From an uncultured Eubacterium sp. (GTDB lineage Bacteria > Bacillota > Clostridia > Peptostreptococcales > Anaerovoracaceae): DNA of 12,331 bases. The translations under genes were made by a program, and so were the position numbers. Below the pieces are notes generated by a model. That model was given only the letters and a program-made list of their open reading frames with translations, was not told the DNA's origin and did no database searches. Position 1 is the stretch's first letter. Each line of letters starts with the position of its first letter. Shown piece by piece: positions 3,833 through 12,331 of this stretch. The stretch spans positions 1-12,331 of the forward strand of contig CANBFZ010000020.1 in the NCBI GenBank assembly GCA_947367725.1, written 5' to 3'.

Positions 3833-5128
3833 TTACTTCTTCAAAGCCTTTACAGCAGCAAATCCATGTTCTAAATCAGAGATGATATCGTCGATATGTT
3901 CTATGCCGATGGAAAGGCGAATTGTGTTAGGGTAAATATTTTGCGCAGCCAGTTCCTCTTCTGTCAGTTGGGAATGGGTTGTGGTAGCGGGGTGAATCAC
4001 GAGACTTTTCACATCAGCCACATTGGCGAGCAGGGAGAAAATCTCCAGATGGTCGATGAAACGATAGGCTTCGTCTTGACCACCTTTGATTTCAAAGGTG
4101 AAGATCGAGGCGCCACCCCTGGCAAAATATTTCTGGTAAAGTGGGTGATCAGGATGTTCAGGTAGAGAAGGATGATGAACCTTTTCTACAAGCGGATGCT
4201 TCGTGAGATACGCGATCACTTTTTTTGTATTTTCAATGTGGCGGTCAAGGCGCAGTGATAATGTTTCTACGCCTTGCAGCAGCAGAAACGCATTAAACGG
4301 AGAAATTGTCGCACCAGTGTCGCGAAGCATGATTGCCCGGAGATAAGTAACGAAAGCAGCCGGTCCTGCGACGTCGACAAAGGAGATATCGTGGTAACTT
4401 GGATTTGCATTTGCAATTGCAGGGTATTTGCCGCTGACCTTCCAGTCAAATTTGCCAGAATCCACAACGACGCCGCCCAATGTCGTGCCATGACCGCCGA
4501 TAAATTTTGTTGCTGAGTGCACCACAATATCTGCACCATGTTCGATGGGGCGAATCAGGTAAGGCGTTCCAAATGTATTGTCGATGACGAGTGGAAGCCC
4601 ATGCCGATGGGCGATTTCTGCTATGGCGTCGATATCTGGAATATCGCTGTTAGGGTTGCCCAGGGTTTCCAGATAAATTGCCTTTGTATGCTTCTTAATA
4701 GATGCTTCCACTGCTTTTGGATTATGGGCGTCAACGAAAGTCGTGGTAATGCCATAGTGGGGTAGCGTATGCGCAAGCAGGTTGTAACTGCCGCCATAAA
4801 TTGTTTTTTGTGCAACAATGTGACCTCCATCTTGCGCAAGTGCCTGTAATGTATAAGTAATGGCAGCTGCGCCTGATGCTAATGCCAGTGCGCCTACGCC
4901 ACCTTCTAGTGCAGCGATTCTCTTTTCTAATACCTCTTGTGTGGAATTGGTCAGACGTCCGTAAATATTGCCGGCGTCTGTCAGCTGAAAGCGTGCCGCA
5001 GCATGTGCTGCATTGTGAAATACATAAGATGTTGTTTGATAAATTGGCACAGCGCGAGCGTCTGTAACAGGATCTGCCTGTTCTTGTCCGACATGAAGCT
5101 GTAACGTTTCAAATTTATAATTATGCAT
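3833..5128 (-). CDS. metY: O-acetylhomoserine sulfhydrylase (aminocarboxypropyltransferase)
   Basis: This 431-residue enzyme of the Cys/Met-metabolism PLP family (fold type I) makes homocysteine from O-acetylhomoserine and sulfide, the direct sulfhydrylation route to methionine. The PLP lysine is K208 in SATKFIGGHG. D183 in VIDNTF should pair with the PLP ring nitrogen, Y56 and R58 in NIYGRLTN bind the cofactor phosphate of the partner subunit, and Y111 stacks on the ring. The insertion around VVVDSGKFDW and the total length favour O-acetylhomoserine sulfhydrylase over the shorter (~380 residue) cystathionine gamma-synthases and lyases. The start ATG has GGAGCC about 8 nt upstream. It is the first gene of a metY-cysK operon, divergent from an Rrf2 regulator that probably controls it. 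Confidence 0.94.
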   Translation of the reverse strand: MHNYKFETLQLHVGQEQADPVTDARAVPIYQTTSYVFHNAAHAAARFQLTDAGNIYGRLTNSTQEVLEKRIAALEGGVGALALASGAAAITYTLQALAQDGGHIVAQKTIYGGSYNLLAHTLPHYGITTTFVDAHNPKAVEASIKKHTKAIYLETLGNPNSDIPDIDAIAEIAHRHGLPLVIDNTFGTPYLIRPIEHGADIVVHSATKFIGGHGTTLGGVVVDSGKFDWKVSGKYPAIANANPSYHDISFVDVAGPAAFVTYLRAIMLRDTGATISPFNAFLLLQGVETLSLRLDRHIENTKKVIAYLTKHPLVEKVHHPSLPEHPDHPLYQKYFARGGASIFTFEIKGGQDEAYRFIDHLEIFSLLANVADVKSLVIHPATTTHSQLTEEELAAQNIYPNTIRLSIGIEHIDDIISDLEHGFAAVKALKK

Positions 5129-5178
5129 GAGTAAGGCTCCTTTCTGTTTGTGTATATAGTGCGGTTGATATAGTTGGG

Positions 5179-5207
5179 ATTATACACCTATAAACATACT
5201 TTGTAAA
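5179..5207 (-). promoter_or_regulatory. Sigma-A type promoter of the metY-cysK operon
   Basis: Read on the - strand, TTTACA (5207-5202) is followed after 17 nt by a perfect TATAAT (5184-5179). Transcription should start near 5172, giving a leader of about 44 nt, too short for a SAM riboswitch or T-box. The spacer contains, on the + strand, ACCTATAAA (5186-5194), which also occurs in the divergent promoter. Confidence 0.8.
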
Positions 5208-5234
5208 TAGGAAAATAGGAAAAAATTATAAATA

Positions 5235-5253
5235 ATTTCAATAAAATTGAAAT
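5235..5253. promoter_or_regulatory. Inverted repeat between the divergent metY and rrf2 promoters
   Basis: ATTTCAAT (5235-5242) and ATTGAAAT (5246-5253) form an 8-bp inverted repeat with a 3-nt centre. It lies just upstream of the rrf2 -35 box and about 28 bp behind the metY -35 box. It is AT-rich, so chance is possible, but size and place fit a dimeric regulator site. Confidence 0.4.
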
Positions 5254-5260
5254 CATTTTC

Positions 5261-5290
5261 TTGATAATACCTATAAATTTATAGTATAAT
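5261..5290 (+). promoter_or_regulatory. Sigma-A type promoter of the Rrf2 regulator gene
   Basis: TTGATA (5261-5266) and a perfect TATAAT (5285-5290) are separated by 18 nt. The predicted transcript starts near 5297, about 20 nt before the gene. The spacer is largely filled by a perfect palindrome (5271-5284), so a protein bound there would block RNA polymerase. Confidence 0.8.
5271..5284. promoter_or_regulatory. Palindromic putative operator inside the rrf2 promoter
   Basis: CTATAAATTTATAG is a perfect 14-bp palindrome lying wholly between the -35 and -10 boxes of the Rrf2 gene. Its left part ACCTATAAA (5269-5277) is repeated in the metY promoter spacer (5186-5194). This suggests autorepression and shared control by the Rrf2 protein; no binding data are implied. 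Confidence 0.55.
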
Positions 5291-5315
5291 TGGAAATACC
5301 AGAAGGAGGAAAGAT

Positions 5316-5729
5316 ATGATTTCAACAAAAGGAAGATATGCATTGCGAGTTATGGTTGATTTGGCAGAACAGGAGACAGATAAATTTGTTCCACTGGATG
5401 AAATTGCAGCGCGTCAAGGAATTTCTAAAAAGTATCTGGAAATTATTGTAAAAGTTTTTGTAAAGGAGAAACTGATTACAGGGCTGCGCGGCAAAGGCGG
5501 CGGATATAAGTTGACGCGTAAGCCTGTAGAATATACAGTTGGGGAAATTTTGGAACTTGCGGAAGGTACCCTGGCTACAGTGGCATGTTTGCAAAAAGGG
5601 GCAGAAGTCTGTCCGATGAGAAGCAAATGTAAAACGCTGCCATTATGGCAGCGTTTTGACGATATAGTGTATCACTTTTTTTTCCATATTACACTGGAGG
5701 ATTTGGCGCAGGGTAAATGGAAAGATTAA
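5316..5729 (+). CDS. Rrf2-family transcriptional regulator (CymR/IscR-like, three cysteines)
   Basis: This 137-residue winged-helix regulator belongs to the Rrf2 family. The N-terminus MISTKGRYALRVMVDLA and the wing GLRGKGGGYKLTRKP are typical. Three cysteines, C91, C99 and C105 (C-x7-C-x5-C), sit where IscR and NsrR ligate an iron-sulfur cluster, whereas classical CymR of Bacillus lacks that triad. The position, divergent from metY-cysK, points to control of cysteine and methionine synthesis as for CymR. The protein could therefore be an Fe-S sensing regulator of sulfur genes, or a CymR relative with structural cysteines. GGAGG (5305-5309) lies 6 nt before the ATG. The stop codon overlaps the convergent carboxypeptidase stop, leaving no space for a terminator between them, and a strong hairpin lies inside the coding region (5631-5657). 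Confidence 0.92.
   Translation: MISTKGRYALRVMVDLAEQETDKFVPLDEIAARQGISKKYLEIIVKVFVKEKLITGLRGKGGGYKLTRKPVEYTVGEILELAEGTLATVACLQKGAEVCPMRSKCKTLPLWQRFDDIVYHFFFHITLEDLAQGKWKD
5631..5657. terminator. Terminator-like hairpin inside the Rrf2 coding region
   Basis: The arms AAAACGCTGCCAT (5631-5643) and ATGGCAGCGTTTT (5645-5657) are exact reverse complements around one central base. On the - strand the stem is followed by a T-rich run (TTTTACATTT). It lies about 70 nt past the stop of the convergent D-Ala-D-Ala carboxypeptidase gene, so it is the likely terminator of that transcript. On the + strand it falls before the end of the Rrf2 gene. Confidence 0.6.
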
Positions 5730-6763
5730 CATCTTTGACGAGCCTTTTTCCTTTTCATTACGATGAAGACGATGAACGCTGCGGCAATCACTGCTGCAGC
5801 AATGCCTGCAATCAACAGTGGGCTGATCGGTTTTTTTAGGTCATCGGCAGTCAGTCCTTCTGTCAGATTGTAAAGGGCAATGGTATCGATAAAGTCGCCC
5901 TGCAGAATCCTGCCATCGCCGTTATCCAGTTCATCGCCGCCCATGACGACGGAATACCAAACCAGACCATCTTTTTCCATGCAGCCGGAGAAGCACCAGC
6001 CAGCAGCCGGGGTATAACCTGTTTTTACGCCGGTTACATACGGTGCATAAGGACTTTCGTAGCGGTCGTCGGGAAATTTGACGCGGTTTGTCGTGTAGTA
6101 GTCAAAGCCTTGGTCGCGCATGTTGGAAGCAGGAACGCTGCCGCTCTCCTGACAAACGATCTCGCGGAATTTATCGAATTGCATGGCATATTCGCAGATT
6201 TTTACCATGTCTCGCGGGGTGGTATAATGATCGGAGGAAGATAAGCCGACGGGGTCTTTAAAATTGGTATTTTCGCAGCCCAGTGCTTTGGCTTTTTCGT
6301 TCATCATAGCAACGAAGTCAGAAAACGAGTCGCATAATGCAAAGGCAAAGGCGGTGGCGGCTTCATTGCCGGAAGGAATCAGCAGATATTTCATGCATTC
6401 CTCAAAGGAAATGGTTTCGCCTGCCAGTAAATGTTGCTGCGGCACCATATAACTGCAGTAGTAATGACGGACTGCATTTTTGTTTACTGTCAATTCGCCT
6501 GTCAGGTCAGGATTTTGCTCCAGTACCAAAATGGCGGTCATTACCTTTGTCATACTTGCCATGGGAAGCTGCATATCTGCATTTTTTTCGCAGAGCACTG
6601 TGCCGGTCGTCGCTTCGTATAAGATGCCTGCTTTTGCGTGTTTTATGACGTCTTCTCCTGTGGCTTCTGTGGCAAAAGCCGTTTGACAATTTGCGAGGGC
6701 GGTAAATCCGAGGAGAATGGAAATTACTACAGGTACAATACATTTTTTTACTGTTTGCGTCAT
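5726..6763 (-). CDS. D-alanyl-D-alanine carboxypeptidase (S11 family, DacF/PBP5-like), membrane-anchored
   Basis: This 345-residue secreted penicillin-binding protein should remove the terminal D-Ala from peptidoglycan pentapeptides outside the membrane. It has an N-terminal signal peptide (about 1-31), the active-site SMTK with S70 and K73, SGN at 131-133 and KTG at 247-249. After the catalytic domain there is room for only about 60 residues and then a membrane helix (about 316-336) with a basic tail KRKKARQRC. The beta-rich PBP5 C-terminal domain of DacA/DacF therefore seems absent and anchoring is by a true helix. I chose the ATG at 6763 because AAAGGA lies 9 nt upstream and the signal peptide follows; a longer frame reaching 6832 would overlap the bEBP gene. 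It follows that gene by 49 nt without a terminator. In Bacillus a related carboxypeptidase gene, dacB, is in one operon with spmAB; here spmAB lies in the same cluster. Confidence 0.93.
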   Translation of the reverse strand: MTQTVKKCIVPVVISILLGFTALANCQTAFATEATGEDVIKHAKAGILYEATTGTVLCEKNADMQLPMASMTKVMTAILVLEQNPDLTGELTVNKNAVRHYYCSYMVPQQHLLAGETISFEECMKYLLIPSGNEAATAFAFALCDSFSDFVAMMNEKAKALGCENTNFKDPVGLSSSDHYTTPRDMVKICEYAMQFDKFREIVCQESGSVPASNMRDQGFDYYTTNRVKFPDDRYESPYAPYVTGVKTGYTPAAGWCFSGCMEKDGLVWYSVVMGGDELDNGDGRILQGDFIDTIALYNLTEGLTADDLKKPISPLLIAGIAAAVIAAAFIVFIVMKRKKARQRC

Positions 6764-6780
6764 AACAATCAATCCTTTCT

Positions 6781-6794
6781 TGTGATTTATCACA
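6781..6794. promoter_or_regulatory. Palindrome upstream of the carboxypeptidase gene
   Basis: TGTGATTTATCACA is a perfect 6-bp inverted repeat with a 2-nt centre, 17 bp before the carboxypeptidase start and after the end of the bEBP gene. It resembles CRP/FNR-type half-sites (TGTGA / TCACA), but the spacing is 4 rather than the CRP 6. No convincing promoter accompanies it. Confidence 0.3.
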
Positions 6795-6812
6795 TAAATA
6801 AGTGAAATGGTG

Positions 6813-8789
6813 TTAATAAGCTGTCTGGGCATGATCTAAAAAGGAAAGCCCTGCGCTGGTAATGCGCGTTCCTATGCGACCTTTGCCAATCTCGATGTAG
6901 CCTTTTTCCTGTAATGCAGAAAGCTCGCTGCGCAGCCGGAAATCACTGATTTTCAGTCCTTCTTGTCCCAGATACTGCACCAGCGCCGCACGACCGATGC
7001 CATGGGAAATGTGGGTGTGTTCGCTGATGATTTTCAAAATCGCCAGGTTCACATTGGCGCCAGATACTCGTACAGTCGTCCCGCTGCTCTGGGCTGCAAT
7101 CTGTGGCGGAAAATCTGACAGGGTCTGATAATATGTCGCCATGTTCTCCAGTTCTCTAATGTTGCCTGGCCAGCTGTAGTTTGTCAGCTGCCGCAGTTTT
7201 GCTGCAGGAATGTTCTTAAAAGCACTGCCTAAAAAGTGCTGCAATAGCGGCAGGATGTCTTCTTTTCTCTTTCGCAGCGGCGGCAGCACCACCGGTAGCA
7301 CGTTGAGTCTGAAAAACAAATCGCTTCGGAAACTTCCCTCTCGTACTGCGCTCTCAAGATCTCGGTTGGTTGCTGTAATCAATCTGATATCCACATCAAT
7401 CAGCCGATCACTTCCCACTCGCATAATTTGTCGTTCTTGTATGGTTCTAAGCAGTCTTGCCTGCAGTTTCGGTGAAATATCTCCGATTTCATCCAGAAAG
7501 ATCGTGCCGTGGTTGGCCTGCTCAAAGAGTCCAATTTTTCCCTTTGCCTGCGCACCTGTAAATGCGCCGCCCTCGTAGCCGAACAGTTCGCTTTCCAGCA
7601 GATTGTCAGGCAGTGCTGCGCAGTTGATGGCGACAAAAGGAAACTTGTTGCGGTAAGAGGCATTGTGAATGGACTGGGCAATCAGTTCCTTGCCTGTGCC
7701 GCTTTCTCCCCGGATTAATACGGTATGGTCTGTCAGTGCGATCTGCTTGGCAGTATGAATGACCTGACTCATATCGCTAGACTGATGGATGATATCTTTA
7801 AAGTGATATCTTGCAATATGTCCTTTCTGCCGGTTGACCTTGTTGGCAGTAGAAACGTCGGCTTCATCCTGCAGGGTGATATAGTAGCCTGCCACTTCGT
7901 CCATCAGCGTCAGCGGATATTTGTTGTAATAGTAGTTGCCATCGTCGATGGCAAGGGGTGCATCAGGGGTGTCGGCGCTTGTCAGAATGCTTGGATCAAT
8001 GCAGCTTTCCAGGTGGATCTGGTTCTTGTCGTCTGCCTGGAAAATCTGCAGTGCTTTGCTGTTGGCGTAGACTACCTGATAGTAATTGTCGACGAGAATC
8101 ATGGCGATTTTGCTGGAATTGACAATGTGGCTGAGCATCTCGCTTTTTAGGTGCCCGTAAATGTAGTTGGCATGGAATGCGTTGTTGGATTCCACCAAAG
8201 ACTGCATGTAGCGGAAGAGATTGCGGTTGATGATGCTGATGTCCAGATCCAGCATTTTCATCAGTTTGAACATGGTTTCAAAGCTGACCTGCCGGTAGCC
8301 AATATCGATGATTTCAGAGATATGGGGCGGAACCAGCAGCGGCTCTGAGGGTGTAATGGCGATTTTCAGATGATTGTAGATGCCGGTATGGGCTAGAGAA
8401 TCATCGAAAGCAATCATGTTGATATGGCTGATGCCCACTTCGTAAAAGGAGTTCAGGGTATCGAGAGAGCTGATGTAGGAGTCATTGACGATGAGGACGT
8501 TGGTGCCTGCAGGAATCTGGGAAATCTTTTTCAGGGCGTCGCGCTCAGGGCTTCTGGTGATTTTGATGAGTTTGTTAAAATCCTTGATGTATAGGGAAGC
8601 CTGCTGATAGATATATTCATCGATGGCGAGAAAGGCGTCGGCGTGCAGCTTCTGCCCCTCTGCCAGATCGTCTAGATAGCAGTTGGTGAAGGCGATATGA
8701 TCTCCAAAGATATCTTCCAGGTTCTTTTTGATAAATTCTATCGCGTTGACATTTCCGTTGGTGCGGTAAATTAATGAAACGTGTTTCAT
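6813..8789 (-). CDS. Sigma-54-dependent transcriptional activator (enhancer-binding protein)
   Basis: This 658-residue activator opens sigma-54 promoters with ATP. An N-terminal region (about 1-190) resembles PrpR-type sensory domains, without a receiver domain. A PAS-like segment follows (about 222-308). The AAA+ core has Walker A GESGTGKE (361-368), the sigma-54 contact loop GAFTGA (408-413), Walker B IFLDEIGD (430-437), TATNRDL, an arginine-finger region FRSDLFFRL and WPGNIREL (540-547). The C-terminus is not the usual Fis-type helix-turn-helix but looks like a winged helix (about 580-650, wing IEIGKGRIGTRIT). GGAGG (8800-8804) lies 10 nt before the ATG. It follows the small membrane protein gene by 23 nt and shares a putative sigma-54 promoter with it, so it is probably autoregulated. 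Likely targets are the divergent spmA-spmB-ldcA genes. The ligand is unknown. Its linker and first helix are nearly duplicated at the right end of the window. Confidence 0.95.
   Translation of the reverse strand: MKHVSLIYRTNGNVNAIEFIKKNLEDIFGDHIAFTNCYLDDLAEGQKLHADAFLAIDEYIYQQASLYIKDFNKLIKITRSPERDALKKISQIPAGTNVLIVNDSYISSLDTLNSFYEVGISHINMIAFDDSLAHTGIYNHLKIAITPSEPLLVPPHISEIIDIGYRQVSFETMFKLMKMLDLDISIINRNLFRYMQSLVESNNAFHANYIYGHLKSEMLSHIVNSSKIAMILVDNYYQVVYANSKALQIFQADDKNQIHLESCIDPSILTSADTPDAPLAIDDGNYYYNKYPLTLMDEVAGYYITLQDEADVSTANKVNRQKGHIARYHFKDIIHQSSDMSQVIHTAKQIALTDHTVLIRGESGTGKELIAQSIHNASYRNKFPFVAINCAALPDNLLESELFGYEGGAFTGAQAKGKIGLFEQANHGTIFLDEIGDISPKLQARLLRTIQERQIMRVGSDRLIDVDIRLITATNRDLESAVREGSFRSDLFFRLNVLPVVLPPLRKRKEDILPLLQHFLGSAFKNIPAAKLRQLTNYSWPGNIRELENMATYYQTLSDFPPQIAAQSSGTTVRVSGANVNLAILKIISEHTHISHGIGRAALVQYLGQEGLKISDFRLRSELSALQEKGYIEIGKGRIGTRITSAGLSFLDHAQTAY
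6991..7139 (-). repeat. Near-identical direct repeat, copy 1 (inside the first bEBP gene)
   Basis: These 149 bp match 12183-12331 with four mismatches by eye (at 6993, 7008, 7058 and 7062); the last 77 bp are identical. The repeat encodes the linker after the AAA+ domain and the start of the winged helix. Copy 2 reaches the window edge, so the full repeat is probably longer. Confidence 0.9.
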
Positions 8790-8812
8790 TGTTCGATTTC
8801 CTCCGGTTTTAG

Positions 8813-9415
8813 TTAATGAAACGTTTGAAACAGAATGATAACCGTATAAAGCGGCTGCATTGAAATGATCAGAATGCAGAATGTCAAGAACGCGTAAAAG
8901 AGGGACAGCAGGGTCCAGGCTTTGGAATAGCCCGGCAATATTTTGAACTGTTTCTCCACGCGGATGGTATCTCTGGCGAGGAGCCGCTCAAAGAAATGAT
9001 TGATCGGCACTGCGTCAATAATGCCCAATCTGAAAAAAGGAATGGTCAGATCCGGTTTTGCGTCGGCGTCGGGTGCAGCGGTTTTATATAGATGTACGCC
9101 GTTTTTACTGAAGACAGCGTATTGCACTTCGGTGAGGGAGATAGATGTAGCGCGCTTTCGTAAAATGTTGTGATACGTAATGGTGGTTTCGTCGTAAGTT
9201 GTGAAGAAGAACTTGTAACCGAAGAAAACAGCAGTCAACACGATAAAAATAATCAGATAGTATAGGATAGTAGGCAAAAGAAATACTTCATAGCCGTCTA
9301 AGTGATAGGCTTTGATCTGCACCATCAAGATGAGCCGTAGCACAAAATATGCCAGTAGCATCAGATAAAAGATAATTTTAGATTTATTGGTGTATGTATA
9401 GGGAATTTTGTACAT
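8813..9415 (-). CDS. Small membrane protein with a PH-like middle domain, unknown function
   Basis: I do not recognise a named family for this 200-residue protein. It has two N-terminal membrane helices (about 13-34 and 45-70), a soluble middle (about 71-160) and one or two C-terminal helices (about 167-198). The middle part alternates strand-like stretches, with ITYHNILRKRATSISLTEV and a final amphipathic helix VPINHFFERLL. This resembles bacterial PH-like domains of small membrane proteins, a weak call from pattern only. I chose the ATG at 9415 because AAGGAGGT lies 9 nt upstream; a longer frame to 9538 lacks a ribosome site and would run over the sigma-54 promoter at 9449-9465. It is the first gene before the bEBP (23-nt gap) under that promoter, so it could be a membrane partner that modulates the activator or a structural member of the same envelope system. 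Confidence 0.8.
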   Translation of the reverse strand: MYKIPYTYTNKSKIIFYLMLLAYFVLRLILMVQIKAYHLDGYEVFLLPTILYYLIIFIVLTAVFFGYKFFFTTYDETTITYHNILRKRATSISLTEVQYAVFSKNGVHLYKTAAPDADAKPDLTIPFFRLGIIDAVPINHFFERLLARDTIRVEKQFKILPGYSKAWTLLSLFYAFLTFCILIISMQPLYTVIILFQTFH

Positions 9416-9448
9416 AAAACAGACCTCCTTGTTTTTGCAATAATACAA

Positions 9449-9465
9449 TGCAAGAATCGTACCAT
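9449..9465 (-). promoter_or_regulatory. Sigma-54 (-24/-12) promoter for the membrane protein-bEBP operon
   Basis: On the - strand the sequence reads ATGGTACGATTCTTGCA, matching TGGYAYG-N4-TTGC. The -24 GG (9463-9462) and -12 GC (9451-9450) are 12 nt apart, as required. Transcription should begin near 9438, about 23 nt before the ATG at 9415, with the ribosome site in between. Confidence 0.75.
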
Positions 9466-9498
9466 AATAAAGCGGCGCACAGAAATGCATTGAGATGA

Positions 9499-9543
9499 AA
9501 TAAGTTGAATAATAAGTTGCAATAAGTTGAACAACCAATTGTT
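9499..9543. promoter_or_regulatory. Putative enhancer (UAS) for the sigma-54 activator: three direct repeats plus inverted repeat
   Basis: AATAAGTTG occurs three times (9499-9507, 9511-9519, 9521-9529), offset by 12 and 10 bp, close to one helical turn. An inverted repeat AACAA-CCAA-TTGTT (9530-9543) follows at once. The block lies about 60-105 bp upstream of the predicted - strand start and 125-170 bp upstream of the + strand start, normal distances for bEBP enhancers. It is within the 307-bp gap 9416-9722, where I see no gene. Confidence 0.6.
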
Positions 9544-9640
9544 TGCACTAGATAGATTTCTTGTCTTATAGGAAAGGAAACTAGAGAAAAATGTGTATTT
9601 TTACATGTTTTTGTCGATTTAGAAAAGCGGGATGAGCCAG

Positions 9641-9658
9641 TTGGCATGGCATTTGCAT
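9641..9658 (+). promoter_or_regulatory. Sigma-54 (-24/-12) promoter for spmA-spmB(-ldcA)
   Basis: TTGGCATGGCATTTGCAT fits the consensus YTGGCAYG-N4-TTGCW at all key positions. The -24 GG is at 9643-9644 and the -12 GC at 9655-9656. The predicted start is near 9668, leaving a leader of about 55 nt to the spmA ATG. A 10-bp palindrome ACTACGTAGT (9671-9680) lies right after the start site. Confidence 0.85.
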
Positions 9659-9722
9659 ATTAAAAAAACGACTACGTAGTAAACCGTTACAACCTGATTT
9701 TACTATTTTGGAGGTAGTATTT

Positions 9723-10406
9723 ATGATGAATTATATCTGGCTGCTCCTGATGGCGGTAGCAGTCATTGCTGGTGCGGCAACTGGCACAATCAGTGATGTG
9801 CAGGACAACCTGTTTGCTTTTGCAGATACAGCAGTGCAGCTTGCAATCGGTCTGATTGGTACAATGGCATTTTTCTGCGGCTTAATGAAAGTGATGGAAG
9901 ACGCAGGTCTTTGCGAAAAGCTGGGCAATGCACTTTCTCCTGTGATGAAATTTTTATTCCCTGGCGTGCCAAAAGGACATCCGGCAAACTCTGCCATTGC
10001 AATGTATATTGCAGCCAGCGTATTAGGCCTGGGGAATGCTTGTACACCGCTTGGTATCAGAGCGATGCAGGAACTGCAGACGCTGAACAAGACCAAGAAT
10101 GTTGCAACTGACGCACAGTGTATGGTTATGGCGATTTCAACCGGTTCCATTTGTCTGATTCCGACAACTGTAATCGCAATGCGTACAGCAGTACAGGCGG
10201 AAGGTGCTGCTGAAATCGTAGGACCTACGATTTTAACCACAATGTGTGCTGCCATTGTCTGCGTTGTCATGACCAAGCTGTTAGGAAGACTGAAAGTCTT
10301 TAAATATGACAATATTATCGAAAAAGAAAGAGCTGCAGGAAAACTGCAGATTAATGAAGAATATATCGGAAATGATCCGTTAGTGCTTGACAGGAAGGAG
10401 GCATAA
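9723..10406 (+). CDS. spmA: SpmA-like membrane protein (nucleoside-recognition/Gate domain)
   Basis: This 227-residue integral membrane protein is closely similar in pattern to spore maturation protein A of Bacillus (about 196 residues). Shared features are an N-terminal helix followed by NG/TGT..DVQ, the central GLMKVMEDAGL, LFPGVPKGHPA, the conserved GLGNACTPLGIRAMQELQ, and SICLIPTTVIAMRT with VGPTIL near the end. SpmA and SpmB are needed for spore core dehydration in Bacillus and carry the Gate domain found in transporters, but their substrate is not established. The C-terminal tail of about 35 residues is longer than in Bacillus. GGAGG (9710-9714) lies 8 nt before the ATG at 9723; a TTG-started frame from 9708 would begin inside that ribosome site. 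It is placed behind a near-consensus sigma-54 promoter rather than in a sporulation operon with dacB. spmB follows after 2 nt. Confidence 0.93.
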   Translation: MMNYIWLLLMAVAVIAGAATGTISDVQDNLFAFADTAVQLAIGLIGTMAFFCGLMKVMEDAGLCEKLGNALSPVMKFLFPGVPKGHPANSAIAMYIAASVLGLGNACTPLGIRAMQELQTLNKTKNVATDAQCMVMAISTGSICLIPTTVIAMRTAVQAEGAAEIVGPTILTTMCAAIVCVVMTKLLGRLKVFKYDNIIEKERAAGKLQINEEYIGNDPLVLDRKEA

Positions 10407-10408
10407 AC

Positions 10409-10945
10409 ATGACAGCAGCTTTAAATTTCTTATCTACTTATTTGATTCCGGTTTTTGTTGTGGCCGTGCCGTTTTATGCATTATTCTTTAAGAAAGTTCC
10501 TATTTACAGTTCCTTTACAGAAGGCGCCAAAGAAGGGTTCGAAACCGGTATTATGATTATTCCTTATCTGGTTGCTATGCTTTGTGCAATCGGCATGTTC
10601 CGTGCTTCCGGTGCGATGGACTGGCTTGTCAGCGTGTTGGAGCCAGCGACCAGTCTTATAAAAATGCCGGCTGAAGTACTGCCGATGGGTTTGATGCGTT
10701 CCTTATCCGGCGGCGGTGCCCAGGGACTTTGTGCGGATCTTCTGGAAACCTACGGAACACAGTCGCAGATTGGTCGTGTTGCTTCGGTTGCTTTTGGTTC
10801 TACAGAAACGACATTCTATGTACTGGCGGTTTACTTTGGTGCAGTTGGTGTTACTAATACAAGACAGTCTATGCTCGCAGGCATTGCAGGAGACTTATTC
10901 TCCCTGATCATGGCAGCGATCATCGTAAACATTATGTGGTTCTAA
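10409..10945 (+). CDS. spmB: SpmB-like membrane protein (nucleoside-recognition/Gate domain)
   Basis: This 178-residue membrane protein has the length and layout of spore maturation protein B and is the usual partner of SpmA. Visible family features are the N-terminal helix YLIPVFVVAVPFYALF, KVPIYSSFTEGAKEGF, the glycine/serine-rich GLMRSLSGGGAQG, and GSTETTFYVLAVYFGAVG, followed by a C-terminal helix. These polar motifs inside hydrophobic stretches suggest a channel or carrier, though transport has not been shown for the family. AGGAGG overlaps the end of spmA and the ATG is 2 nt past the spmA stop, so translation is probably coupled and the two products made in equal amounts. No terminator follows; instead a putative sigma-54 promoter lies 4 nt beyond the stop, ahead of ldcA. 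Confidence 0.93.
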   Translation: MTAALNFLSTYLIPVFVVAVPFYALFFKKVPIYSSFTEGAKEGFETGIMIIPYLVAMLCAIGMFRASGAMDWLVSVLEPATSLIKMPAEVLPMGLMRSLSGGGAQGLCADLLETYGTQSQIGRVASVAFGSTETTFYVLAVYFGAVGVTNTRQSMLAGIAGDLFSLIMAAIIVNIMWF

Positions 10946-10948
10946 GTT

Positions 10949-10964
10949 TGGTATGAATTTTGCG
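10949..10964 (+). promoter_or_regulatory. Putative second sigma-54 promoter, upstream of ldcA
   Basis: TGGTATGAATTTTGCG matches TGGYAYG-N4-TTGC, with -24 GG at 10950-10951 and -12 GC at 10962-10963, 12 nt apart. The predicted start near 10975 leaves about 45 nt to the ATG. It would let ldcA be made without spmAB, although read-through from spmAB also seems possible. Confidence 0.55.
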
Positions 10965-11019
10965 CTTTAATTTATGTAATCAGCACTAGAATCGAATTTT
11001 ATGAAACGAGGTGGCTCAC

Positions 11020-11937
11020 ATGGTACATCCAAAGAGATTAAAAGCCGGTGATGTAGTTGGTCTGGTTGCGACCAGTTCTCCGGTAGAAGAAGAAAGAGCA
11101 AAGCAGTGCAAGGCTGTTTTGGAACAGCAAGGCTTTAAAGTAAAAGCGGCGGATAACCTGTTCGCATCGAAAGGCGGTTATATGGCCGGCGAAGAAGCGG
11201 TACGGGGACGTTGGCTCAACAATATGTTTGCAGACGACGAGGTGGATGCGATCTTCTGCTTGAGAGGCGGCGATGGAGCCAACCGTATTTTGGAATATTT
11301 GGATCTGGATATGATTCAAAAACATCCAAAGATCTTTGTAGGCTACAGCGATGTGACTAGTTTGCATCTGCTTTTGAATCAAACTTGCGGTCTGGTGACC
11401 TACCACGGTCCTATGGTGTCTTCCAACATGGTTGACGATTTTGATCGGGAAAGCAAAACTGCATTTTTCGAGGCGCTGACGGCAGATGACTGCTATACTT
11501 ATCCGGCGCCGGAAGGTTTTCCGATTGGTGTTGCGCGGGAAGGTCGTGCAGAGGGCGTTTTGGTAGGCGGCAATCTGACTGTGATGTGTGCATCCGTTGG
11601 TACGCCTTGTGAAATCGACACCAAAGGGAAGATACTCTTTATTGAGGAAATCGGAGAACATATTGGAAATCTGGACCGTCATATTTATCAGCTGCGCAAT
11701 GCGGGCAAATTTGATGATCTAGCAGGGATCCTCTTAGGGCAGTTCACCAGATGTAACATTGATGAGGAAGGCTATGATATTGTACAGGTTATGCTAGAGG
11801 CGACAGAAGGGCTGGATATTCCAATCATGTACAATATTCAGTCTGGACATGGGGCGCCGATGATCACCATTCCGATGGGCGGCACCTGCATCATGGACAC
11901 GGAAAAAGGCGAAATTTGCTTTCCGGTAGAAAAATAA
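11020..11937 (+). CDS. ldcA: LD-carboxypeptidase, S66 family (LdcA/MccF-like)
   Basis: This 305-residue cytoplasmic serine peptidase should cleave the L,D bond before the terminal D-Ala of murein tetrapeptides during cell-wall recycling. The family triad is visible: nucleophile S110 in VGYSDVT, a glutamate in LFIEEIGE (E209 or E210), and H277 in QSGHGAP. The RGGDGANRIL stretch (82-91) corresponds to the conserved RGG.G motif. MccF-type enzymes of the same family hydrolyse peptide antibiotics, so self-resistance is an alternative role. The ATG at 11020 is preceded by GAGGTGG with about 6-nt spacing; an in-frame GTG at 11011 would lie inside that ribosome site. It follows spmB by 74 nt and ends at a strong terminator. 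Together with the D-Ala-D-Ala carboxypeptidase in the cluster it would trim stem peptides stepwise, one enzyme outside and one inside the cell. Confidence 0.92.
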   Translation: MVHPKRLKAGDVVGLVATSSPVEEERAKQCKAVLEQQGFKVKAADNLFASKGGYMAGEEAVRGRWLNNMFADDEVDAIFCLRGGDGANRILEYLDLDMIQKHPKIFVGYSDVTSLHLLLNQTCGLVTYHGPMVSSNMVDDFDRESKTAFFEALTADDCYTYPAPEGFPIGVAREGRAEGVLVGGNLTVMCASVGTPCEIDTKGKILFIEEIGEHIGNLDRHIYQLRNAGKFDDLAGILLGQFTRCNIDEEGYDIVQVMLEATEGLDIPIMYNIQSGHGAPMITIPMGGTCIMDTEKGEICFPVEK

Positions 11938-12007: not shown

Positions 12008-12331
12008 TTACTGATCGGACTGTGTCTGCAGCGCAGCAAGTCCATTTTCTGTAATTCTAGTGCCGTAGCGGCCTTTGCCGATTTCAATCCACTGGTTTTG
12101 TGCTAGGGCACCTAAAATTTCTCGCAATTTGCCGTCACTGACGCTGATGCCCGAATTTTTTAAAATCTGTACCAGTGCGGTGCGGCCGATGCCATGGGAG
12201 ATGTGGGTGTGTTCGCTGATGATTTTCAAAATCGCCAGGTTCACATTGGTGCCGGATACTCGTACAGTCGTCCCGCTGCTCTGGGCTGCAATCTGTGGCG
12301 GAAAATCTGACAGGGTCTGATAATATGTCGC
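12008..12331 (-). CDS. Second sigma-54-dependent activator, C-terminal part (5' end outside window)
   Basis: The last 107 residues of a second bEBP are present; the frame is open to the window edge, so the gene continues beyond it. Read from the edge the protein begins ATYYQTLSDFPPQIAAQSSG, exactly as residues 551-570 of the first bEBP. About 52 residues align with two changes (A to T in SG(A/T)NVN and in GR(A/T)ALVQ), and then the proteins diverge: ISDFRLRSELSALQEKG in one, VSDGKLREILGALAQNQ in the other, before the wing IEIGKGRxGTRIT becomes similar again. The DNA-reading helix thus differs while the linker does not, so this protein probably activates other promoters. It is convergent with ldcA. 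Whether its AAA+ core is intact cannot be seen here. Confidence 0.88.
   Translation of the reverse strand, partial: ATYYQTLSDFPPQIAAQSSGTTVRVSGTNVNLAILKIISEHTHISHGIGRTALVQILKNSGISVSDGKLREILGALAQNQWIEIGKGRYGTRITENGLAALQTQSDQ
12183..12331 (-). repeat. Near-identical direct repeat, copy 2 (inside the second bEBP gene)
   Basis: These 149 bp match 6991-7139 with four mismatches, at an offset of 5192 bp and in the same orientation. Identity continues to the last base of the window, so the right boundary is unknown. The left boundary is sharp: beyond 12183 the genes differ clearly. Confidence 0.9.

Follow-up and report, generated by a model that had tools for sequence, protein, structure and literature searches.

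We examined a 12,331-base stretch of DNA from an uncultured Eubacterium sp. of the family Anaerovoracaceae (the window, which is the whole of contig C20 in a 2.12-Mb draft genome that is 73.6% complete), where spmA and spmB, the genes for two small membrane proteins, stand in a row with the gene for an S66 LD-carboxypeptidase family protein. By gene linkage and promoter sequences, these genes belong to a sigma-54-type module for handling wall peptides and diaminopimelate (DAP), and we consider it probable, at roughly 60%, that the module imports peptidoglycan stem peptides, dismantles them and turns DAP into lysine, with SpmAB as a transporter similar to the concentrative nucleoside transporters (CNT). 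The transport function of SpmAB, its substrate and the direction of movement, import, are what we infer from the constant S66 partner, a hint from the predicted fold, the peptide ABC importers that adjoin orthologous activators in stretches with no spmAB, and the parallel with yjiH-yjiG-iadA of Escherichia coli. An earlier note on the window had supposed that the cargo of SpmAB is a peptide or amino acid derived from the wall; the neighbouring genes (S66, LysA, DapF and D-peptide peptidases) favour this supposition and make it more specific.

In the scheme that we propose, SpmA and SpmB would together form the CNT-like transporter and would carry stem peptides (e.g. L-Ala-gamma-D-Glu-DAP-D-Ala) or DAP-containing cores into the cell, where a cytoplasmic S66 would take the terminal D-Ala off the tetrapeptide. 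Peptidases and racemases encoded nearby (M19, M20, M55, M15, S58, Alr) would split the remainder, DapF would convert LL-DAP to meso-DAP, and LysA would decarboxylate meso-DAP, giving lysine that the cell could ferment or use in protein synthesis; in the presence of a wall-derived ligand, the activators would turn on the whole set. The features of the window are listed from left to right, with start codons that we picked from the sequence; below, handles in G, C and L denote genomes, contigs and loci.

5726..6763, minus strand: S11 D-Ala-D-Ala carboxypeptidase (Pfam match and motifs).
6813..8789, minus strand: sigma-54 activator 1 (PAS, AAA+ with GAFTGA, PF08461-like C-terminus).
8813..9415, minus strand: small membrane protein with no Pfam match, divergent from spmA (relatives at class I loci).
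9449..9464, minus strand: candidate -24/-12 site with 1 mismatch, 34 bp ahead of the membrane-protein gene (motif scan).
9642..9657, plus strand: predicted sigma-54 (-24/-12) promoter of spmA-spmB-S66, TGGCATGGCATTTGCA (no mismatch to TGGCAYRN4TTGCW; shuffles).
9723..10406, plus strand: class I spmA, Gate domain membrane protein of 227 amino acids (PF07670 at 39.4 bits, cut-off 29.6; tree).
10409..10945, plus strand: class I spmB, Gate domain membrane protein of 178 amino acids (PF07670 at 47 bits, cut-off 29.6).
11020..11937, plus strand: S66 LD-carboxypeptidase family protein (PF02016 at 134 bits, PF17676 at 119 bits; GYSD, GHG).
12008..12331, minus strand: C-terminal part of sigma-54 activator 2, cut at the contig end (DNA identity to activator 1).

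All six gene identities that the earlier note had proposed (spmA, spmB, S66, S11, activator and membrane protein) were found in the window. The Gate domain (PF07670) scores above its cut-off in both of the adjacent small membrane proteins, and the motifs of S66 (GYSD, GHG), S11 (SxxK, SGN, KTG) and the activator (GESGTGKE, GAFTGA), which we take to have functional roles in these proteins, are intact. Judged by eye, S66 has no visible signal peptide; in a search of solved structures its top-scoring chains were named MccF, followed by chains named LD- or muramoyltetrapeptide carboxypeptidase. The window is one of two class I SpmAB modules in its own genome, a second spmA-spmB-S66 cluster being present on contig C27 in the order lysA (cut by the contig end), S66, spmB, spmA, divergent small membrane genes, M15 D-Ala-D-Ala dipeptidase, M19, M20, M55 and another activator.

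Two kinds of SpmAB were distinguished with a profile of four class I SpmB proteins, searched over 119 genomes of the family. Scores were two-peaked, with at least 256 bits in 11 genomes (16 places; class I) and 61-157 bits in 30 genomes (class II), while matches of 20-25 bits in five more family genomes were ignored; the spmB of the window scores 356 bits and is itself a member of the profile. The sporulation gene spoIVA, the only one tested, was found in 30 of the 119 genomes, among them 27/30 of the lower-scoring class (a hand count) and 6/11 of class I, and all of these six also hold a lower-scoring, spore-type spmB. The five class I genomes without spoIVA (that of the window and four that are 99% complete) hold class I only, so that, as far as spoIVA can tell, the presence of class I is not tied to the sporulation gene in 5/11 family genomes. 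In a class-wide search of 392 genomes, only three outside the family scored at least 220 bits, and all three carry an S66-linked cluster; one of another family, G307, has a second pair in a spore-type housekeeping block.

In a tree of joined SpmA and SpmB, left unrooted because the E. coli branch was too long to root it and drawn without the first spmA of L075 (157 residues), the 16 class I pairs of the family and of L004 and L009 form one group with a support of 100, and three class I pairs of other families together with L118 adjoin it with a support of only 64. Class II proteins are 28-45% (SpmA) and 34-47% (SpmB) identical to those of the window. Class I is a distinct SpmAB subfamily, not an altered spore SpmAB, and we therefore rejected the description of the pair as a rewired spore system, which the earlier note had offered, because spore-type SpmAB exists separately and coexists with class I in seven genomes (six by score and spoIVA, plus G307; the gene context was seen for G088 and G008). 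Another of the three genomes from outside the family, G243, has two pairs that group together in the tree, L117 and L118, one with S66 and a sigma-54 site, the other with neither and outside the usual spore block. We counted L118 as class II for want of S66 and a sigma-54 site; G243 was not counted among the genomes with both kinds, since L118 lies outside both spore blocks and is the neighbour of L117 in the tree.

The surroundings of the two classes were compared at all 14 class I places outside the window's own genome (11 stretches), class II places from 9/30 family genomes, 20 stretches from the class-wide search, and L004 and L009; after L087 (spmAB not recovered) and L131 (1,000 bases) were left out, 18 class I loci, spanning four families, and 24 class II loci remained. 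Within 9 kb of spmB (a tally tilted by label proteins that came mostly from class I loci, and including related loci such as the congeners L069 and L070, 92.5% identical), S66 was found at 18/18 class I loci vs. 0/24 class II loci, and the activator at 11/18 vs. 1/24. The small membrane protein (14/18), the DAP decarboxylase LysA (10/18), M20 (8/18), the DAP epimerase DapF (7/18), the alanine racemase Alr (6/18), M19 (6/18), M55 (4/18) and M15 (3/18) were each seen at 0/24 class II loci; conversely, MurA (7/24) and SpoIID (6/24) were class II neighbours with a count of 0/18 in class I. The class I loci thus show no murA/spoIID sporulation neighbourhood (0/18; sporulation sigma sites were not searched for), and class II pairs lie mostly in a tmk-holB-yaaT-trmN6 block with murA and spoIID, or in a metG-tatD block (most names given by eye). 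S66 is directly 3' of spmB at every class I locus except L078, where it lies upstream of spmA at a contig end.

The recurrent class I neighbours are accordingly the DAP decarboxylase and epimerase, alanine racemase, D-peptide peptidases and peptide importers; peptide ABC importers (family names by eye) also adjoin orthologous activators at L002, L003, L005 and L007, stretches with no spmAB. The earlier note would have been contradicted had relatives lacked a conserved linkage; the linkage is conserved, in the form of S66 at every class I locus. Its further claim was that the partnership of SpmAB with the carboxypeptidase DacB, whose gene is in an operon with spmAB in Bacillus subtilis (PMC8745062), persists here, and this was not supported. 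An S11 match lies within 9 kb at 2/18 class I loci, one of them a 28% match, its relatives are near the orthologous activator in L005 and L007 and seldom near spmAB, and S11 has no sigma-54 site in the window; we therefore rejected S11 as the heir of DacB, the constant partner being S66. A zinc-ribbon-like protein of ~130 residues, with no Pfam match over the cut-off, was also seen at 6/18 class I loci (L069 3249-3647, L070 11922-12323, L072, L074, L078 and L004).

An exact TGGCAYRN4TTGCW site lies 65 bp ahead of the window's spmA, and 0/500 shuffles of the 300 bp upstream yielded an exact site. Over the 300 bp ahead of 20 class I and 24 class II spmA genes, class I showed an exact site in 16/20, one mismatch in 1/20 and none in 3/20, whereas class II showed a site in 0/24 with up to two mismatches allowed; leaving out the congener L070 and L075's transferred copy lowers the exact class I count to 13/17 (by hand). 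Two of the three class I genes without a site, in L119 and L121, belong to rows in which an exact site stands ahead of lysA, the first gene of lysA-spmA-spmB-S66-M20, and L077 is the third. Chance was rejected as the origin of the promoter sites, shuffles giving 0.00 expected exact sites over the 20 regions. L079 was left out of this tally, its spmA having only 22 residues; the gene is damaged (9440-9505, in G008), and an exact site remains 156 bp ahead of the truncated start.

Elsewhere, exact sites precede the membrane-protein gene in L009, L073 and L075, and exact or one-mismatch sites at related loci precede S12, racemase, S58, M19, M20, alr, dapF, oppA and membrane-protein genes, with one-mismatch sites upstream of S11 in L005 and L007; lone one-mismatch sites prove little, because a few of them lie inside genes. 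With a -24/-12 sequence, rpoN and a GAFTGA activator all present, spmA-spmB-S66 fits a sigma-54-dependent operon as far as its sequence can indicate. The proposal that the setting is of the sigma-54 type rather than that of sporulation is thus borne out by the exact site at the window's spmA and by the counts of the two classes, while the plural in the note's mention of such promoters needs trimming, since spmA has an exact site and the membrane-protein gene one with a mismatch, but S11 and activator 1 have none in the window with up to one mismatch allowed.

The fate of DAP was followed through lysA, dapB, dapA and murE, sought in 14 class I genomes. The MurE motif DNPR is a mark of meso-DAP addition. 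Neither dapA nor dapB was found in G072, G043, G116 and G011 (each 99% complete), and the only above-cut-off MurE in these four is without DNPR; the other ten match both dapA and dapB (below the cut-off for dapA in G049 and for dapB in G028, G069 and G106) and have a DNPR-type MurE. Three of the four (G072, G043 and G116) have kept lysA and dapF in the spmAB-S66 cluster, and G011 has kept activator-dapF-lysA at another place. In these relatives, free of dapA, dapB and DNPR-type MurE, no internal source is visible for the DAP on which DapF and LysA would act. G072 is of the same genus as the window; between its matches to a penicillin-binding protein and murF (L160) there is no murE, where the window's genome (L157) has one, and the absence of murE from this division/wall cluster, together with that of dapA and dapB from the genome as a whole, may reflect a recent change of wall type. 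A second lysA in G011 (L164, about 5000-6196) is in two pieces and looks damaged.

Several of our own observations weigh against import of wall peptides for lysine. The salvage pattern, in which lysA and dapF are kept and dapA and dapB are missing, was seen in 4/14 genomes examined, and the other 10/14 probably remain able to synthesize DAP. The genome of the window itself carries dapA, dapB and a MurE of each kind; the DAP argument therefore covers its relatives and not this genome. At L072 and L077, moreover, S66 is present without DAP genes.

The cluster also seems to move. A 3,018-bp block comprising the membrane gene, spmA, spmB, S66 and both promoter sites is 98.8% identical between G072 (L073 7965-10982) and G069 (L075 12454-15466), which are of different genera, while the other cluster of G072 is 70-74% identical to that of G069. 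In G069 the block lies between ISL3-type and DDE-type transposase genes, with a 46-nt repeat at 93%. Because the block is near-identical across genera and flanked by transposase genes, these four genes seem to be carried together as a unit that does not include the activator; the identity may also be an assembly error, both genomes being drafts.

Four other explanations were weighed against stem-peptide import. The one that survives best, though we regard it as unlikely, is that the genes serve the cell's own wall, SpmAB, S66 and S11 remodelling or recycling its peptidoglycan during vegetative growth with sigma-54 in control. It draws on the S11 gene adjoining the operon in the window, on the S11 genes with one-mismatch sites near the orthologous activator in L005 and L007, and on the dacB operon of B. 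subtilis, but it sits poorly with an S66 that has no visible signal peptide and with the DapF and LysA genes of many clusters, found also in genomes without dapA, dapB or DNPR-type MurE; peptide importers together with M19, M55, S58 and D-aminoacylase fit nutrient breakdown instead. Less credit is due to the idea that the cargo of SpmAB is lysine, DAP or some other single amino acid, carried perhaps outward, with sigma-54 coupling this movement to lysA and the peptidases as bystanders. In G243, G307 and G357 the only lysA found is indeed that of the cluster, with a sigma-54 site upstream; however, S66 is more constant than lysA (18/18 vs. 10/18 loci), and three genomes with lysA in the cluster are without dapA and dapB.

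An unrelated cargo, such as a nucleoside, with SpmAB brought beside wall enzymes by operon shuffling, seems to us very improbable: the weak resemblance of the SpmB model is to nucleoside transporters, but S66 is near at 18/18 loci in four families, and a unit of four genes seems to have been transferred whole. That class I SpmAB still serves spore core dehydration, with the sigma-54 site as an added layer, we can hardly credit. In its favour, the protein families are the same, and spmA and spmB have been listed for every spore-forming bacillus and clostridium (PMC3533761); against it, spoIVA is missing from 5/11 family genomes with class I (four of which are 99% complete), the six that have it also hold a spore-type spmB, and a sigma-54 site precedes 0/24 class II spmA genes.

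The activator adjoining the spmA-spmB-S66 row is of the one-component type (PAS, AAA+, winged helix). From its N-terminus, which has no Pfam match, it continues through PAS and AAA+ with GAFTGA to a C-terminal winged helix like that of RNase R (PF08461; 6816-7142, minus strand, 22.2 bits against a cut-off of 21.4), an unusual DNA-binding end for this class; no Fis-type helix-turn-helix was matched, and a sequence search with the N-terminus matched neither a Pfam family other than PAS nor a solved structure. The earlier note missed that the window breaks off inside a second, nearly identical activator gene: the last 165 bases of the window match 6975-7139 of activator 1 with 94.5% DNA identity, and the end of contig C289 (L033 3256-3313) shares 98% identity with the start of activator 1 along 58 bases. 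Because both contig ends match activator 1, activator 2 probably spans C20 to C289 as one gene split by the assembly; if the contigs are so joined, it would stand on C289 back to back with a racemase, an S12 enzyme and dppB, and the two activators would flank the membrane gene and spmAB-S66 on either side.

The draft genome has rpoN and 23 further matches to the window's activator, mostly to its AAA+ part (25 including the window's two). Eight relatives of the activator in named contigs came from Emergencia timonensis and uncultured Clostridia (Emergencia and Eubacterium among them), and two of these eight loci, L004 and L009, hold spmAB. A search for an upstream binding site of the activator gave no convincing candidate: the 10-mer AAAATGGATA occurs in 7/36 upstream regions against a shuffle maximum of 4, several of these regions being common to divergent genes, and no palindrome built on it was found in the window. 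Two further observations concern activator loci: in L005 (12183-13565), L006 and L007, a protein of 460 residues, in which a transglutaminase core domain was matched for L005, lies beside the orthologous activator and an S58 peptidase, and on C92 (L035 5125-5140) the gene of an amino acid transporter, AGCS-type by eye, has an exact sigma-54 site ahead of it and another activator next to it.

With a non-spore subfamily linked to a single enzyme, and in many cases to DAP metabolism, the activity of SpmAB becomes a matter for a simple uptake test, and the class I linkage points to the kind of cargo that the spore pair may carry. If stem-peptide import is true, it would be a lysine source for bacteria unable to make DAP, which matters for cross-feeding in communities. 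More tentatively, and with the odds against it, some gut-type Clostridia may have given up making DAP and may live on that of other bacteria through a sigma-54-switched, horizontally mobile SpmAB-S66 importer of foreign wall peptides, DapF and LysA yielding lysine; by extension, SpmA/SpmB, including the spore pair and E. coli YjiHG, would be a two-subunit transporter family for peptides with isopeptide bonds or D-amino acids.

Among known systems, the CNT proteins (CNTnw, vcCNT) offer a hint of structural likeness: the SpmB model weakly resembles them, and the SpmB and, less clearly, the SpmA models can be aligned to CNT chains over most of their length, although Foldseek gave no match at E <= 0.001 for either model. 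Spore-type SpmAB differs from class I in having no S66 and no sigma-54 site and in standing in housekeeping blocks. E. coli recycles murein peptides with LdcA, Mpl and MppA-Opp, where an LD-carboxypeptidase likewise trims the tetrapeptide after uptake; there the peptide goes back into the wall, whereas the DapF and LysA seen here suggest lysine as the product, and SpmAB is not known as a part of that pathway. The E. coli genes yjiH-yjiG-iadA (NC_000913.3 4558354-4560680, L116) share two small membrane proteins, one annotated as of the Gate family, followed by a same-strand gene for an isoaspartyl dipeptidase, but the sequences are very distant (branch length 3.7) and IadA takes the place of S66. 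By title, no paper about this pair appeared in our literature search, nor did one joining 'spore maturation protein' with 'LD-carboxypeptidase', one with COG2715 or COG0700, or a title or abstract opening on an SpmAB-S66 sigma-54 module (subscription journals lie mostly outside the coverage of that search). The SpmA/SpmB-DacB system of B. subtilis has the same two Gate-domain membrane proteins in the same order and a wall peptidase as partner (PMC8745062), and a 2012 survey records no data on SpmA/SpmB activity or structure (PMC3533761). Closest in regulation are the sigma-54 regulons for amino-acid catabolism in Clostridiales (Nie et al., 2019, PMC6615313), in which mostly one-component PAS activators switch the breakdown of amino acids or peptides. 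Table 1 of that paper names none of its 39 activator groups with spmAB, S66, lysA or dapF, although generic target names (hyp, memP) could hide one, and its 'peptide degradation' groups, XcyR and YpdR, have targets other than the class I module; if our reading is true, class I would represent a sigma-54 regulon for eating bacterial cell wall that is not named among the groups of that table.

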